In this document: positions 55,727-63,981 of the stretch, piece by piece | Position numbering within the stretch: position 1 is the stretch's first letter | How the letters are laid out: each line of letters begins with the position of its first letter | Origin: Punctularia strigosozonata HHB-11173 SS5 | Taxonomy: Eukaryota > Basidiomycota > Agaricomycetes > Corticiales > Punctulariaceae | Assembly: GCF_000264995.1 (NCBI RefSeq) | Contig: NW_006767439.1 | Coordinates: 26,470 to 90,469 of the forward strand | Direction: 5' to 3' | DNA: 64,000 nucleotides | Translations under genes and position numbers: made by a program | Notes under the pieces: model-generated | The model's input: the letters and a program-made list of their open reading frames with translations, nothing else | Database searches by the model: none | Told to the model about the DNA's origin: nothing

Positions 55727-58494
55727 TCACATGCTTGAGGTTGACGTCGGCGTCCCTCTTGATAACCTATCGCCGAACGATTGAATCGATTGCGACAGTG
55801 GGGACCGGACACCGACACGCTTGTAGATCTGTGTAATCTCTTCATCTTCGCGCAAGTCCTCCTCGTCTATGTTCTCCAGAGCTCGGCGATGTGATTTCAC
55901 AAATTTATCGCGGAAGGAGACCAGCCCTTTCAGCGAGAGAGGTTCCTCAATCGTATTCTGGAAACCAGTCAAACGACTGTATAAAGAATGACATTACTGG
56001 GGACTTACATAGTCGAAGTGGTTCAACAGAATGTCGATCATGAGGAGTAATTTATCATCCACCCCACCGACAACCTGCAACTGAGGAAGAGCTTGACATA
56101 GTGCGCATAGGAATCCGTCTACAAACTATCACAGAATGTCACAATGTAAGCCAGATCCAGAACCTACCATGTTGATCAGGATCATATAGGGCCTCCAAAA
56201 TGTCTTTTGCTAGTAACAGATGGATATTGACCGGCTCCGTCTCCCCCGCTTGAATCCTACAAGATTGACACCGGTTATGGGCGCCACGCATGTTTCAAGC
56301 TCTGACTAACCATGTCATCACGTTCCGAGGATCAGTCCAAGTAAGGAGCTCTACGACCAAGTCGTGTAATGGCAGAACGTTAGATTCTCCGGAATCATGA
56401 ACTTCGCTGATACCGGCTAAGCGATTAGCGATATCCAGGAAGGACTGAAAAGGGGGAAAGCAATCAGCGGCATCGAGAAGCTTTTTTGTTCTTTTCGTCT
56501 TACCTGTCTGAGGAAATTCTGGTTCTCGGAGGCCTGGGAGCCAAAGACTGAAAAAGAATAGGACAACTTGTGTCGTAATCTACCATTGGCAGCCACATGA
56601 GGGCTCGCATATACACACAGCATAGCAGCCATAACCTGTTGGTCGTAATGTTACGCATCGAAGAACTAACGAGATTGAGTGCCTACCCTTTTGTCGCGAA
56701 GAGACGTGTTGAGCAGTAGTTTGCAAAACCCAGCACATATCAAATCTGAGATATCCGTGCTCTCGTTGCCTTCCAAGGTATACATGAGAAGAGACAGGAC
56801 AGTGTCCAACTAACGATTTCATCAGATATCGGAGTACATATAAGGCTTACGAAACGGAGGAATACCTTGTTACAGCAGGTCACGTCGAACACCATCAGAA
56901 TATCAAATAGTGCTGAGATGACCAGAACTTGATTTCTTGCGGTTGGCGACTGTTGCAAGATGCTTAAGAAAGTATCGAATGAACCACCCGCCAGGGACTA
57001 TGAGAACCAGCGTAAATGCGCAGATATCCCTATCGTACACACCATCGCCTTACCTTGTCCGACAGACAGTATAAGCACAGTGCTTTAACCCCGCGCTCCT
57101 GCAATAAGCGATGGCCATGCTTCGCTGCAGGGATGACGAGATCCATCAAAAGAGCGCGAATGTGAGGAGCGTCGTCCAAAATCTACGATTCGGGTGAATT
57201 CACGCTGCACATACGACAACCCTGAACGCACAACATGAGAATGACGCAGCATCTCTGATAGCAGCTCGAGACACCTGCAGTCTCTGGCTTCGATAGCTTT
57301 GCTTTCGTTGGTAATTTTGGTACCCGAATCTTGACTTCCGAGGAGTCGGTCGCAGGTTTTGGGCGATAACTCAGTCGAGCTTGGTGGATCCCGCTGCGCA
57401 AGAAAAGTTGGCCCGGTGCTTCATCGGTATGGGGAAAATACAGAGATAGTGGCTCACGGAAGTCTGAGAGTGCACGATCGAATATTCGTCTCGGATATCG
57501 GATATGATCTCGACTACGATGCGCGTGTATTCGCGCTCATTCTGAAGGAGCTTCTGCAGGAGCTCCAGTGCAGGTTCTATCACACCCATGGGGAGTGAAG
57601 GGTTAATTAGCGCGGTTCCTACGGCAACGTAAGTAGAGTCGATGGCCTTCGGAGAGATACGGTGATCACTGACGTATAACGAGAGACATAGACCGTCTTC
57701 CAACTTCATCGCCTAAATCCATAGATCCCGCGAGGCACATGAGCTGAGTTGCTACAACTAAACGTTCCTGAACGTCGGGCGGAAATTCCTGTGTATCTTC
57801 CACGTGTCCTTGATCGATCATTTCATCTTCTACCTGAGGGATGCACGACAAGAGGACGTCCAGCACCGCCCTCAGTTGAGCCGCTAGTTGTGTCAAATTC
57901 GGCACCGAAGCATCTTCCAGGAAAGCCTCCCATCGCTCTTCAGAGTAATTCTTGTGACAGTGTAACAAAAACGCGCGCACGAGCGAAATGGACTCCAAGG
58001 TTGGATGCGAAAGTGTGCCTATGACGAGGCTCAATATGGGACATGCGGAGGTCACAGGGTGCGAACCTTCGAATGTTAGCTCACGGAAGATCCTTGGGCG
58101 TTCCGTGAAAATGGCGTCCAAAGCGTCCATGATGACCTCAACGCCGGTGTTGTAGGTGTCGTTCGCGTGTACGAACAAACATGTCGCCATCAAACGACCA
58201 AAGCGGGTGAGATCCAAGAAAGGTGTACGCTCGTTATCATACCCACACTTTTCGGCATCAGGGTCAGCGGTCAAGTCGAACCACGCCAAACAGAACCTTC
58301 GCGCAGCGCTGCACACGGACGCATCGCAGTCGGCGAGTCCCGATCGTAGGAGCCCACGAAGTTCCACGGCGTTCAGCTCTTCCAAACATTGGCCGGGCGA
58401 TAGGCGGAAGAACGCGGCTCGACGTACGCGCGCGCTTACATCTCTTGTACGTAGCAATAGGATCGACATCCTAATCGATTCGGCGTGCGATAAC
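55727..58494 (-). CDS. YCG1: Condensin complex subunit 3 (Ycg1/CAP-G), 5' part cut off by a retrotransposon
   Basis: This HEAT-repeat subunit of condensin binds the kleisin and DNA and compacts mitotic chromosomes. Eleven exons remain (57674-58494, 57458-57618, 57232-57393, 57054-57182, 56866-56997, 56687-56809, 56504-56635, 56311-56444, 56168-56256, 56009-56118, 55727-55957), about 740 residues with every phase and splice site intact. Diagnostic stretches are LLLRTRDVSARVRRAAFFRL, GDEVGRRSMSL, ALELLQKLLQNEREYTRIVV, DCRCLELLSEML, LDTVLSLLMYTLEGNESTD and LSYSFSVFGSQASENQNFLR. Yeast Ycg1 has 1035 residues, so roughly 300 N-terminal ones are missing. The frame is open up to 58494, where the LTR begins. 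The rest should lie beyond 64 kb. The ATG at 58469 is an internal Met, not the start. Confidence 0.87.
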
Positions 58495-58855
58495 TGTAAC
58501 AGACCTGAGTAGAAGTAAGTAGAATCATGTAGAACGCACCCGAATAGCGTAGCTTATCGTAGGATAGCGTCGCATCTGCGTACGCTGACTCATCTGACTC
58601 ATACTCGCAAGTATAAGATAGGCGCTTAGCGCGCCTCCCGAGCTCTCGGAGCTCCCGTGTACAACTTAGATAGTAATTGATTTATTCTATTGAGTGCTTC
58701 GTTGTATGAAGCATCCTTAGATAGATTGAATACTCACTGAATTTACGATCGTTTTACTCAAACCGAAAGGCCTCGCCGACTGATCAAAGAACCTAGCTCT
58801 TATCTTATCGGTAACCAATAGATTAGATAACTATCTATCTACTGCTACCGTTACA
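58495..58855 (+). repeat. 5' LTR, 361 bp
   Basis: It is bounded by the 6-bp inverted ends TGTAAC (58495-58500) and GTTACA (58850-58855), with the usual TG...CA termini. The left edge coincides with the end of the condensin reading frame. The five bases before it, ataac (58490-58494), are the expected target duplication; the matching copy would lie beyond the window. No second LTR is present to confirm the borders. Confidence 0.82.
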
Positions 58856-58857
58856 CT

Positions 58858-58870
58858 TGGTGACCACCTT
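58858..58870 (+). other. Candidate tRNA primer-binding site
   Basis: TGGTGACCACCTT begins two bases after the LTR, where a sequence complementary to a tRNA 3' end starting TGG is expected. I cannot assign the tRNA. Confidence 0.45.
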
Positions 58871-58980
58871 GGTTCAGTCGATCGGGACTCAAACTTACTT
58901 GCGCAACACATCATCGAATTGTCCCGAGGGAGATTCGATCCGAAGACATCAAAACATCTTTTGAATATCAGCAATACGAC

Positions 58981-61900
58981 ATGTCAAACACTGAGAACCG
59001 CTCTGAGCGCGGATTTACATCCTTCGACATACCTGAGCCGCGAGATCGCGAGGACGATGCGCCGCAATCACAGCAAACACATATTTCTGGCACGCCTCTG
59101 GATAGAACTGTGCCCCTGACCGATCCACCCTTGAGACCTCCGGGCTTGCCACCGCTTCAGAGACCCGATACGGCTCCACCATCGCCGGATTATTCGTATC
59201 TAAGGGTACCAAGACGTGAGATGGAACGTCTATTACATCCCGACAACTCACGCGATTCGAATCACGCATTTTCGATGATTTTGAGGAATATTATTGTCGA
59301 TATCTTCGAGAAGAATCAACGAATCGAATCAGTCGTAGATATAATGAGCAAGAAAATGGATTCACTGACCGAAGACGTAGCAAAGCTTTTGAGGAAGCCC
59401 GCCAGACCTACGACGATATATCATTCGAATGCCGAAGATTGTGAGAAAGAAATGAAAGACATACGGGAGAAACTCGAAGCACTTCGGATTCGGCAGGATC
59501 GACACATCCTCACGACGATCGAGGCGCGAGAGGATGCTAACAGAATTCTGGAAGCGATTCAAAGGTCACAACAGCCTATCAAGATAGAAGAAGGCGTACC
59601 TGTATATCACACAACGAATGTCGCACCTGAAATCCGACGCGATCCGTTGTTACACAGAGTACAAACACCGTCTTCCGACGAATCCACTATAGCAGAAGTC
59701 GAGGAGCCTGAAGGGAGAACATATCGCGGCGTCAATGAGACGCATTGTCATTGTGACTGCACACGCATACTCCCAGATATAGAAACTCACCTGGATCAAT
59801 TAACACAGTTGGTACACCATCAGAACGAAATGAGGAATCAAGATTCGGACCAAGCAACGTTGAGATGGGCCGATCAGGCTGAGATGAACGGTTTCGTCGG
59901 AGAAACTCTGAATAATCTCCAGCAGGAGATCCTCGAGATGCGTGGTGCGATCGACGATGTACAGCGAAATTGCGCTAGGATACAAGACCTCGACGAGATA
60001 CGGATCTCGAGGGAAGACACACAGCACGAGGATGAACCAGCAGCTACACAAGCTCCAATACCAATACAGACCGAAGAACCAAGAAGCGAGCACGATGGAC
60101 AGCTTCGAAGATCGCCGCATGTTGCCTTTTCGAATATGGAACGCCGACCAGCACAAAACATCGGAAGTATCAGTGGCTTGGCACAGCAGCCCGTGACGCA
60201 GCAAGGCACCAGCAACTCTAATTCCAATCCGATCGGACCGCAATTAAACTCCGCGACTCCCGCTTTCATGCCGTTCACGCCATACCTCACTAGTACTCCT
60301 CGCGGACAAGCTCTAGTCACTCCGGCAACAAACTTACCCACCTCTGCTTCATTTCTCACTGGTCTAGACGATGGTCGCGTCAAACTCAAGCCTGCGGACT
60401 TTCCTAAATTTGGAGGAAAGGACGAGGACATAGATCGTTGGTTAGAGCAAGTAAGTACCATTAAGGATCTTGCTCGAGCTGACGACGATGCTCTACTGCG
60501 AATAATAGCCCTTCTGCTGAAAGGAGACGCTAGTAAGTGGCTCACTACGCTATCTTATGCTGAACGAAGCCGCTTAATTACCTGGCAAGACTGGCAAGAT
60601 GCGCTTCGCGCAGAGTATCGCAAGGCCAACTTCGAAACTCACAAGGAGGAAGAACTTCGCCAGCGCATGTGGTATCGCAATGAGAGCTTTGCCGAATATT
60701 ATACAGATCGGAGGTCACTACAACGGTATGTCTTAGGTGAACGAGCGGATGATCAACGATTAATTAGTGACATGATGCTCGGCATCCCTCAATCGATGCA
60801 AACGCTCATCAAGACAGCGACAGGGCAAGTTCTCAACAAGAACTTGACTATTACTGAATGGAAACGTTTAGTGATCGATGCCGAACCCGGACTCATTGCA
60901 CAATACGGCCATTTACGTCCCTACAAGCCGCGGACGGATACCGAACGGAATGCAAATCAGTCTCGGGGACCGAGACCTTTCTACCGAGGGGGGTACCAGT
61001 CGAACACACCGTCGAATTCAAATTCTAACGATAGATCATTCACGCCATCATCTCAGAACACTCAGAATCGAAGCCAGGGACAAGATAGCAGGAACACGAC
61101 ACCTGTACAGAATTCGAGAGGCGTAAATACGCGGCAAGACCAAGGTCAGAATAGAGATTATCGTCCTCGCAATGATAATCGAAATTCTAATTCGTTCCGA
61201 CGAAACGACAGATACAGTGGTAACCAGCGACCTCAGTATAACTACAGGAATAATAATCAAGGTCGCAACAATCCCGCCCGAGCGAACGTCACTACAACCA
61301 ATGCGGAGGATAGTTCGACTCAAACAGCTTCGAATAATATCACAGTTGGTGTGTACAACCAGTACGACTCCGAGGAAAGCGAGCACTACGCTATCTCTAA
61401 CTTTGCAGACTGTGTAGAAGTTATACAAGCTGAACCGGTCACTCGAAAATCGTCACGCATCCAGCAGTCCTCAAACAATCCAAACTACAAGCTTACTCGT
61501 TCACGAAGACCTAACAAGGCTCGCATTGCATCAGACGTAGCCACAAAGGGCAGTGAGCGTCCAGAACACTCCGAAAATGGAATCCAGGCTGACCAGACGG
61601 CTTTGGAGAATTCACAGGACGCAAAAATGACTGTCGCTTCGGATCCAATGGACATTACTTACGAAGACAAGACACCAGCCTTCGTACTAATCTCTATCGA
61701 AGGACAGGATACATCCAGGGTATTCAAGGGATGCATCGACTCAGGTTCGTCAATTAGCATGATTGACCGCGAATTTCTGAAGATACATTCGCCTTTGACT
61801 CGATTACAGACATGCTCGACTATCAGAGTGAATGGCATAGGAGGCAATTCGTTCATCACCTCCTTTGTCACCCTCAACGTCGCGCTCACTGATCTAGCGG

Positions 61901-63981
61901 GCCACATAATCCAATATCCGGCCAAATTCTATGTTAACCCGGCGAGTACCACGAAAATCATCATAGGAAACGACTTCCTAACACATTACGGAGCCGTGAT
62001 CGATGTAGACGAAGGGCTTCTGAAATTGCGAAGGGACTCATCCAGCAAATCTTCGTTTAAACTAGAATGTAAGCCGTCTTTGCCTCCGGATGTTAAAGTA
62101 ACTGAAAGCTTTACCATTCGAGGATATCATGCCGCTCGAGTTCCAATTCGTATTGATGGATTGGTCAAGACGCCGCACTTCTACCTGGATCCCAAACCTA
62201 TTCGAGAGGGTGAGTACGCTGTCTCCGCTGCAAAATTAATCGGTAACACATCTGACACCAAGGTTGTCGAGGTATATAACCTTGAACCGTTTCCGATAAC
62301 CCTACACGAAGGAGAAACTATAGGGACAGCTCACTCGCTTGATACTCGCCTCCCTACGTCTGTATCATCGAATAACACTCCAATTCACGCTTTGGACCGT
62401 TCAGAAGACTTGTCTGAATTTCGAAAAGCGATTCAATCAATGGATATCAACCCTACGCTCGACGGATCTCAACGACGCAAATTACTAGAGATTCTAGAGA
62501 AAAGACGACATGCTTTTGCATACGGCGATAGGAAACTTGGTGCAGCAAATATCGATCCGATTCGCATCGATACAGGAGATGCACACCCTATCTCTACACC
62601 TCCCTATCACGCTTCGCCTAAGGGTAAACAGATTGTCGAAGATACCGTTGCCAAATTATTAGCAGACGATATCATCAAGCCCTCTGAGTCCCCATGGGCA
62701 TCTAACGTCGTTCTCATATCACAGAAAGATAAAATCAGATTTTGTATTGACTACAGAGCACTCAATGCCGTTACCAAGGCAGATCAGTACCCGCTACCTT
62801 GGATCGACGATTATCTGAGTCAATTCGAAGGCAAGCGTTACTTCACAACGTTTGACGCAAATTCAGGATTTCACCAGCTGCCTGTGGACGAAAGGGACCG
62901 CGAGAAACTCGCCTTCAGGACACACAACGGACTATACCATTACAAGAGGATGCCGTTTGGAATTCGGAATGGACCGTCAATCTTTCAGCGAGCCATGGAT
63001 AAAGCGCTAGGACCTACAAAGTGGAACTTCGCTGTAGTATATATTGATGATATCATCGTGTATTCTGCAGATTTTGATCGCCATCTCTCGCATCTCGATC
63101 AGATCTTGGATCGCATAATTAAATCTCGATTCACTTTGTCAATCCCAAAATCTCATGTGTGCTACCAAGAGATTCATGCGTTAGGACACAATGTGAGCCG
63201 CCTCGGGATAGGTATGAAACACGAGAACGTCAAGGCTATATTGGAATTTAGACAACCGGCTTCGGTGAAGGATGTACAAATATTTCTGGGCATGACAGGC
63301 TATTACCGACGCTTCGTGAAGGACTATGCAAAGATTGCAAGACCACTAACCGCTCTACTGGCCAAGGACAAAGTATTCGTGTGGTCAGCTCACTGTCAGG
63401 ATGCTTTTGAACGCCTTCGAGATGCTCTGGCAAGTGATCCGATTCTTGTCCATCCTAATTATGACAAACCGTTCATAGTATACACCGATGGATCGAAGAT
63501 AGGACTTGGAGGAGTACTGGCTCAGATCGGAGACGACGGGAAGGAGCACATGATCAGTGCTGTGTCCCGACAGTTGAATGCACAGGAAGAAGGGTATACG
63601 GCAACAGAACTCGAGTGCTTAGCCGTCTTGTGGGCTCTAAGAAAATTCCATCCCTACATCGATGGTATGACAGACGTCTCAGTGATCACAGATCACATTG
63701 CGCTTCAATGGATCTGGAATTACAAAGGCACTAATGCTCGATTGAAACGATGGAGTTTAGAGCTACAACCATACAAATACACCGTTACTATTAAGCATCG
63801 GCCAGGAAAGACACATGCCAACGTCGATGCTCTATCCAGAGCACCTCTGATCAATACAGCACCACCCGAAAACGATGCAGACTGCTTTAATACACTTGTT
63901 ACGACCATCCCTCCGCAATTCTTCAAACATACAGAACGATACTTACAAGACGAGTATTTGCGCCCATCTATGAGCAAATGA
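58981..63981 (+). CDS. Gag-Pol polyprotein of the Ty3/gypsy element (Gag, protease, RT, RNase H)
   Basis: It is one 1666-codon frame. Residues 1-470 are acidic and disordered with possible coiled coils (about 150-200 and 300-345). A retrotransposon Gag capsid-like segment follows (about 470-640, from DEDIDRWLEQ to MLGIPQSMQTLI). Residues 640-790 are Asn/Arg/Gln-rich; no CCHC zinc knuckle is visible, so RNA binding may rest on this basic stretch. Protease: DSGSS at 920-924. RT: RFCIDYRALNAV (about 1253), then YIDD (1354-1357). RNase H: YTDGSK with D1503. The frame stops at TGA 63979-63981, before the integrase, while another frame starting near 63964 stays open to the window end, so a one-base shift or a frameshift site is likely. 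A Gag-Pol fusion without a stop between the parts is common in fungal gypsy elements. Confidence 0.93.
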   Translation: MSNTENRSERGFTSFDIPEPRDREDDAPQSQQTHISGTPLDRTVPLTDPPLRPPGLPPLQRPDTAPPSPDYSYLRVPRREMERLLHPDNSRDSNHAFSMILRNIIVDIFEKNQRIESVVDIMSKKMDSLTEDVAKLLRKPARPTTIYHSNAEDCEKEMKDIREKLEALRIRQDRHILTTIEAREDANRILEAIQRSQQPIKIEEGVPVYHTTNVAPEIRRDPLLHRVQTPSSDESTIAEVEEPEGRTYRGVNETHCHCDCTRILPDIETHLDQLTQLVHHQNEMRNQDSDQATLRWADQAEMNGFVGETLNNLQQEILEMRGAIDDVQRNCARIQDLDEIRISREDTQHEDEPAATQAPIPIQTEEPRSEHDGQLRRSPHVAFSNMERRPAQNIGSISGLAQQPVTQQGTSNSNSNPIGPQLNSATPAFMPFTPYLTSTPRGQALVTPATNLPTSASFLTGLDDGRVKLKPADFPKFGGKDEDIDRWLEQVSTIKDLARADDDALLRIIALLLKGDASKWLTTLSYAERSRLITWQDWQDALRAEYRKANFETHKEEELRQRMWYRNESFAEYYTDRRSLQRYVLGERADDQRLISDMMLGIPQSMQTLIKTATGQVLNKNLTITEWKRLVIDAEPGLIAQYGHLRPYKPRTDTERNANQSRGPRPFYRGGYQSNTPSNSNSNDRSFTPSSQNTQNRSQGQDSRNTTPVQNSRGVNTRQDQGQNRDYRPRNDNRNSNSFRRNDRYSGNQRPQYNYRNNNQGRNNPARANVTTTNAEDSSTQTASNNITVGVYNQYDSEESEHYAISNFADCVEVIQAEPVTRKSSRIQQSSNNPNYKLTRSRRPNKARIASDVATKGSERPEHSENGIQADQTALENSQDAKMTVASDPMDITYEDKTPAFVLISIEGQDTSRVFKGCIDSGSSISMIDREFLKIHSPLTRLQTCSTIRVNGIGGNSFITSFVTLNVALTDLAGHIIQYPAKFYVNPASTTKIIIGNDFLTHYGAVIDVDEGLLKLRRDSSSKSSFKLECKPSLPPDVKVTESFTIRGYHAARVPIRIDGLVKTPHFYLDPKPIREGEYAVSAAKLIGNTSDTKVVEVYNLEPFPITLHEGETIGTAHSLDTRLPTSVSSNNTPIHALDRSEDLSEFRKAIQSMDINPTLDGSQRRKLLEILEKRRHAFAYGDRKLGAANIDPIRIDTGDAHPISTPPYHASPKGKQIVEDTVAKLLADDIIKPSESPWASNVVLISQKDKIRFCIDYRALNAVTKADQYPLPWIDDYLSQFEGKRYFTTFDANSGFHQLPVDERDREKLAFRTHNGLYHYKRMPFGIRNGPSIFQRAMDKALGPTKWNFAVVYIDDIIVYSADFDRHLSHLDQILDRIIKSRFTLSIPKSHVCYQEIHALGHNVSRLGIGMKHENVKAILEFRQPASVKDVQIFLGMTGYYRRFVKDYAKIARPLTALLAKDKVFVWSAHCQDAFERLRDALASDPILVHPNYDKPFIVYTDGSKIGLGGVLAQIGDDGKEHMISAVSRQLNAQEEGYTATELECLAVLWALRKFHPYIDGMTDVSVITDHIALQWIWNYKGTNARLKRWSLELQPYKYTVTIKHRPGKTHANVDALSRAPLINTAPPENDADCFNTLVTTIPPQFFKHTERYLQDEYLRPSMSK

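Follow-up and report, generated by a model that had tools for sequence, protein, structure and literature searches.

An LTR retrotransposon interrupts a divergent second condensin CAP-G gene in Punctularia strigosozonata

The closest described counterpart of the gene analysed here is the condensin I subunit CAP-G (Ycg1/Cnd3, NCAPG). Two patches of this protein contact DNA, i.e. YC1 (Sc K70 and K71) and YC2 (Sc K849; Ct K916 and K917), and charge reversal at either of them strongly reduces DNA binding, according to the available text of PMC5651216. Additional copies of condensin I genes have been described for animals. The grasshopper Eyprepocnemis plorans carries a CAP-G pseudogene on its B chromosome (PMC5732253, accessible part), and condensin I subunits are duplicated in some insects (PMC6759200, accessible part). 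For fungi, a search of the open-access literature, partly at the level of titles or abstract beginnings, yielded no species with two CAP-G genes.

The locus described here is situated in a window of 64,000 nt of the Punctularia strigosozonata genome, where an LTR element interrupts a CAP-G gene that is encoded on the minus strand. The genome contains a second, uninterrupted CAP-G gene; in the following, the uninterrupted gene is called A and the split gene is called B. Both resemble the described CAP-G proteins in the Cnd3 domain, the lysine pair of YC1, and the similarity to solved subunit 3 chains. In contrast to the described systems, two genes are present in one genome, and one of them, B, evolves about twofold faster judging by the tree and has been split by an element. 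As in E. plorans, an inactivated extra CAP-G gene exists beside a normal one; however, the available text on the grasshopper describes a pseudogenic version on an extra chromosome, whereas B appears to be an old divergent paralog that was broken by a retrotransposon. The duplications of PMC6759200 are similar in that some species have extra subunit genes, but they concern insects, and the accessible part of that paper does not mention a retrotransposon insertion.

We confirmed that the LTR element cut gene B at one point (Table 1). An earlier note on this DNA, made from the window alone, had placed the split at position 58495, with the frame open to 58494, and had predicted a 3′ LTR past the window end, a 5-bp repeat of ATAAC, and the N-terminal exons of the gene on the minus strand beyond that LTR; all of these were found. 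The two LTRs are identical at 361 of 361 positions, which limits their divergence to <0.83% (95% bound from 0 differences in 361 sites), the element is bordered by ATAAC at either end, and it measures 19,594 bp from one outer LTR end to the other. When the empty site was rebuilt by removal of one ATAAC copy, the two flanks formed one continuous CAP-G frame (...DIRQALI/QLSHAESIRM..., the slash marking the junction), and the remaining two frames over the junction have stops 19 and 7 codons beyond it. Chance is not an issue here, as identical LTRs, a duplicated target site, and two protein halves that meet in frame all coincide. At the present locus, the N-terminal frame crosses the LTR edge by one codon and then reaches a stop, so that it comprises 223 residues. 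The intron preceding the insertion terminates with ...CTGTAG and is followed by 24 bases of exon 4 up to the duplicated target site, which places the element 29 bases into the coding exon and not in an intron, one of the options of the earlier note. Another of its options, a very recent insertion, fits with the identical LTRs, although gene conversion could be an alternative source of this identity.

Table 1. Features of the split gene B and of the inserted element. Plain numbers are window positions; C7 is the contig, C7 coordinates equal window position + 26469, and the window corresponds to C7:26470-90469.
Feature	Position	Strand	Remark
B exon 14 including stop codon	55727..55957	-	hand-made model
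B exon 13 (110 bp in both genes)	56009..56118	-	model and alignment; GFLCALCQ, Leu-Cys at YC2 position
B exon 12 (89 bp in both genes)	56168..56256	-	hand-made model
B exon 11	56311..56444	-	hand-made model
B exon 10 (132 bp in both genes)	56504..56635	-	hand-made model
B exon 9 (123 bp in both genes)	56687..56809	-	hand-made model
B exon 8	56866..56997	-	hand-made model
B exon 7 (129 bp in both genes)	57054..57182	-	hand-made model; part of Cnd3 domain
B exon 6	57235..57393	-	hand-made model
B exon 5	57458..57618	-	hand-made model
B exon 4, portion on window side	57674..58494	-	frame open throughout; 58490-58494 is the duplicated target site
Target-site duplication ATAAC, left copy	58490..58494	.	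abuts 5′ LTR
5′ LTR, 361 bp, TGTAAC...GTTACA	58495..58855	+	identical to 3′ LTR
gag-pol-like open frame of element	58864..63981	+	stop closes frame at 63981
Retrotrans_gag (PF03732)	about 60502-60786	+	Pfam match in gag-pol frame
RT (PF00078; PF17917 and PF17919 among matches of same frame)	about 62728-63195	+	Pfam
RNase H	about 63460-63774	+	Pfam match in gag-pol frame
3′ LTR	C7:104197-104557		same contig, past window end
Target-site duplication ATAAC, right copy	C7:104558-104562		just after 3′ LTR
B exons 1-3 and start of exon 4	C7:104558-105379	-	beyond 3′ LTR

The gag-pol frame of the element was run against Pfam as separate pieces. Apart from the matches listed in Table 1, the aspartyl protease family PF13650 was matched only below its cut-off, and no integrase family was matched in the frame up to 63978, including the region between gag and RT. 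As gag, RT, and RNase H occur and no integrase is recognized in the gag-RT interval, the element is Ty3-like; this domain content is that of the readable frame 58864-63981, the stretch C7:90470-103658 (13,189 bp) reading as N. It shares with Ty3/Gypsy LTR retrotransposons the TG...CA LTRs, the 5-bp target duplication, and the order of gag followed by RT and RNase H. In contrast to these, the outer LTR ends are 19.6 kb apart, suggesting a compound insert.

For comparison, the assembly (33.57 Mb, 32 contigs) was searched with the LTR sequence. Seven places were found, i.e. the pair at the split gene, a pair on contig C9 (C9:233897-243567), and three single or partial LTRs. The LTRs of the C9 pair are identical to each other and 92% identical to those at B, and CGAAG is present on both of their outer sides, so recent activity of this LTR family at other places in the genome is likely as well. 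With 9,671 bp for the C9 pair, the insert at B is longer by 9,923 bp and thus about twice as long. Based on this comparison of lengths, the insert at B is probably compound, with a nested insertion as a likely origin.

The exon models of A and B were made by hand, and the splice sites were partly guided by the comparison of the two genes, which favours agreement between them. On the window side, B comprises eleven exons (the rest of exon 4, then exons 5-14; 55727-58494) encoding 739 residues. In this hand-made model they contain no stop and no frameshift, and all ten introns are GT-AG, in agreement with the earlier statement that the retained exons are undamaged. The number of missing N-terminal residues had been overestimated at about 300: the part past the element has 222 codons. 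One codon is common to both halves through the target duplication, so that the whole of B has about 960 residues; the complete hand-made model is free of stops and frameshifts over about 960 codons and has 13 GT-AG introns. Exon 4 alone matched no Pfam family at E 0.1, and its match to condensin subunit 3 (E 0.14) ranked below a chance match to GMP reductase (E 0.05). Exon 4 by itself is too divergent to be identified, and B is recognized as a CAP-G gene from its other exons. A putative cyanate hydratase gene, spotted by eye, adjoins the start of B (L004:5780-6660).

Gene A (C7:174321-177944) lies about 69 kb from B on the same contig and strand and is open across 14 exons. With a last intron of 55 bp it encodes 967 residues, a model that fits B better than the version with a 34-bp intron (974 residues). 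The intron between exons 10 and 11 of A (C7:175009-175061) is a probable GC-AG intron. A Cnd3 profile search of the assembly yielded five exon matches, three in A and two in B, four of which were over the cut-off, and the genome thus has at least these two Cnd3 genes. Exon 4 of B gave two further places in the assembly, and the frame of the first exon gave one further place. A third CAP-G place, on contig C16 (C16:614333-615899; L016:4334-5900), is a fragment of A in two parts with 98.6% and 96.6% DNA identity, separated by 156 other bases; it is probably a broken copy of recent origin.

The Cnd3 domain has its full length in both genes, with scores of 295.4 bits for A and 179.4 bits for the C-terminal half of B (Pfam cut-off 25.8). 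For both, the best PDB match is condensin complex subunit 3 (306 bits for A, 88 bits for the C-terminal half of B). The N-terminal half of B matched no Pfam family at E 0.01; it aligns with A at 32% identity across 241 columns (E 1e-29), and a second alignment of A and B has 27% identity over 733 columns. Both genes agree in the position and phase of 12 of their 13 introns; the intron after EFG occurs in A only, and the one before RDPP in B only. Five exons are equal in length (129, 123, 132, 89, and 110 bp). An identity of 27-32% together with shared introns rules out that B is a relic copy of A, and the uninterrupted state of A rules out that B is the sole essential YCG1. The earlier note had regarded an intact second YCG1 as a sign that the split gene is a relic; the second gene does exist, but B is a divergent paralog and not a relic.

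To place both genes, a tree was calculated with five sequences, i.e. A, B, and the CAP-G proteins of budding yeast, fission yeast, and human, covering the larger part of the Cnd3 region as well as the sequence in front of it. A groups with B (SH-aLRT 91.7, bootstrap 92), with branch lengths of 0.67 for A and 1.49 for B, and the yeast node is weak (37.4/55). Judged by its sequence, A is the conserved form of CAP-G and likely the essential one, and B is apparently an old, fast-evolving paralog that was coding until recently. The two DNA-contact patches were placed by eye on pairwise alignments. The YC1 lysine pair is present in A and B (motif KKxxxxxDRIVK), and the YC2 position is occupied by Arg-Lys in A and by Leu-Cys in B. 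The basic pair of YC2 is a conserved functional site but does not define a protein as CAP-G. Given the loss of this pair and an N-terminal half without a Pfam match, the function of B may already have been altered or reduced before the insertion.

The other condensin subunits were also searched for, and the counts are lower bounds. We found at least one gene for CAP-H (contig C11, three adjoining matches), at least one for CAP-D2 (C7:129.6-130.1 kb, two adjoining matches), and at least four loci with SMC hinges (five matches). The condensin II families PF12422 (Condensin2nSMC) and CNDH2_N had no match in the genome, in searches in which no control genome was matched either. An assignment of B as the condensin II subunit CAP-G2 is not favoured, because B matches Cnd3. 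A, B, and the CAP-D2-like gene are all located within 100 kb (C7:82-178 kb), in about the first tenth of the contig.

We favour the reading, with a probability of about 0.86, that B was recently knocked out by a retrotransposon, that A supplies the essential function, and that B was functional until then. A Ty3-type LTR retrotransposon would have recently entered coding exon 4 of the divergent second CAP-G gene and destroyed it, the stop just inside the LTR leaving an N-terminal stub of 223 of about 960 residues. The loss of B would be tolerated because A would supply the essential condensin I function, and B would have been a functional, faster-evolving duplicate until the insertion. The earlier note had argued that the essentiality of condensin leaves only three cases, i.e. 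a second intact allele in a dikaryon, a very recent insertion, or an insertion in an intron that is spliced out. This constraint does not hold with a second intact CAP-G gene on the same contig.

A heterozygous insertion in a dikaryon or diploid, with an intact B allele on a haplotype outside the assembly, is a possibility to which we give clearly less than even odds. The identical LTRs would fit a young, possibly segregating insertion, and a collapsed or single-haplotype assembly would equally be expected to contain exon 4 of B only once, as is the case. However, no second B allele and no empty site were found in the assembly, in which the 21-base empty-site junction has no match, and a second B allele is not needed because A is uninterrupted; heterozygosity is thus compatible with the favoured knockout of B, but not demanded by it. 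It is improbable that decay of B into a pseudogene had set in ahead of the insertion. Its longer branch, the lost YC2 pair, the weaker domain scores, and a contrast in GC content among codon positions that is less marked than in A would be in line with decay. In contrast, the hand-made model is open over its whole length with regular introns, the GC content is lower at second codon positions in B as it is in A, and conserved residues are preferentially retained. Of the 77 residues common to A and both yeasts, 49 are retained in B, compared with about 106 of 442 in the other A-B columns, and at the 149 columns where the two yeasts agree, B keeps 65 and A keeps 77. This is the pattern expected from selection on a protein and not from free decay.

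Two further explanations have very little probability. The element might be spliced out as an intron, or the halves might be translated separately and still come together, as plausible splice sites have been kept in both halves and the C-terminal half has a Met (...IRM) at residue nine. However, the element is within coding sequence, the N-terminal frame ends just inside the LTR, and an intron of 19.6 kb would be far beyond the 46-69 bp of the introns of A and B (with 55 bp for the last intron of A). Equally doubtful is a misjoin of the assembly through a repeated LTR, which could be suspected from the identical LTRs and from an insert about twice as long as that of the other pair, but unrelated places would not give the same 5-bp repeat on both outer flanks and gene halves that join in frame. 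An artefact confined to the interior of the element is possible.

A recent knockout of B beside an uninterrupted A removes the apparent paradox of an essential gene that is cut by a transposon, and it supplies a rule for reading such loci, i.e. to check for a paralog before a dikaryon is inferred. The surprise that remains is a long-lived second condensin I CAP-G in a fungus in which one CAP-H and one CAP-D2 were found. Tentatively, and with odds well below even, the lineage may have long kept two condensin I CAP-G proteins, a canonical one and a fast one with an altered DNA-binding groove (YC1 kept, YC2 lost). The two would compete for the single CAP-H, and the fast one would form a variant condensin I complex that might serve in meiosis or at a particular chromosome region; it would just have been lost in this isolate as a natural knockout. 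If relatives hold intact orthologs of B, they would be an example of fungi in which CAP-G exists as two subunits, and the isolate would carry a natural loss-of-function allele with which the role of the second subunit could be addressed.
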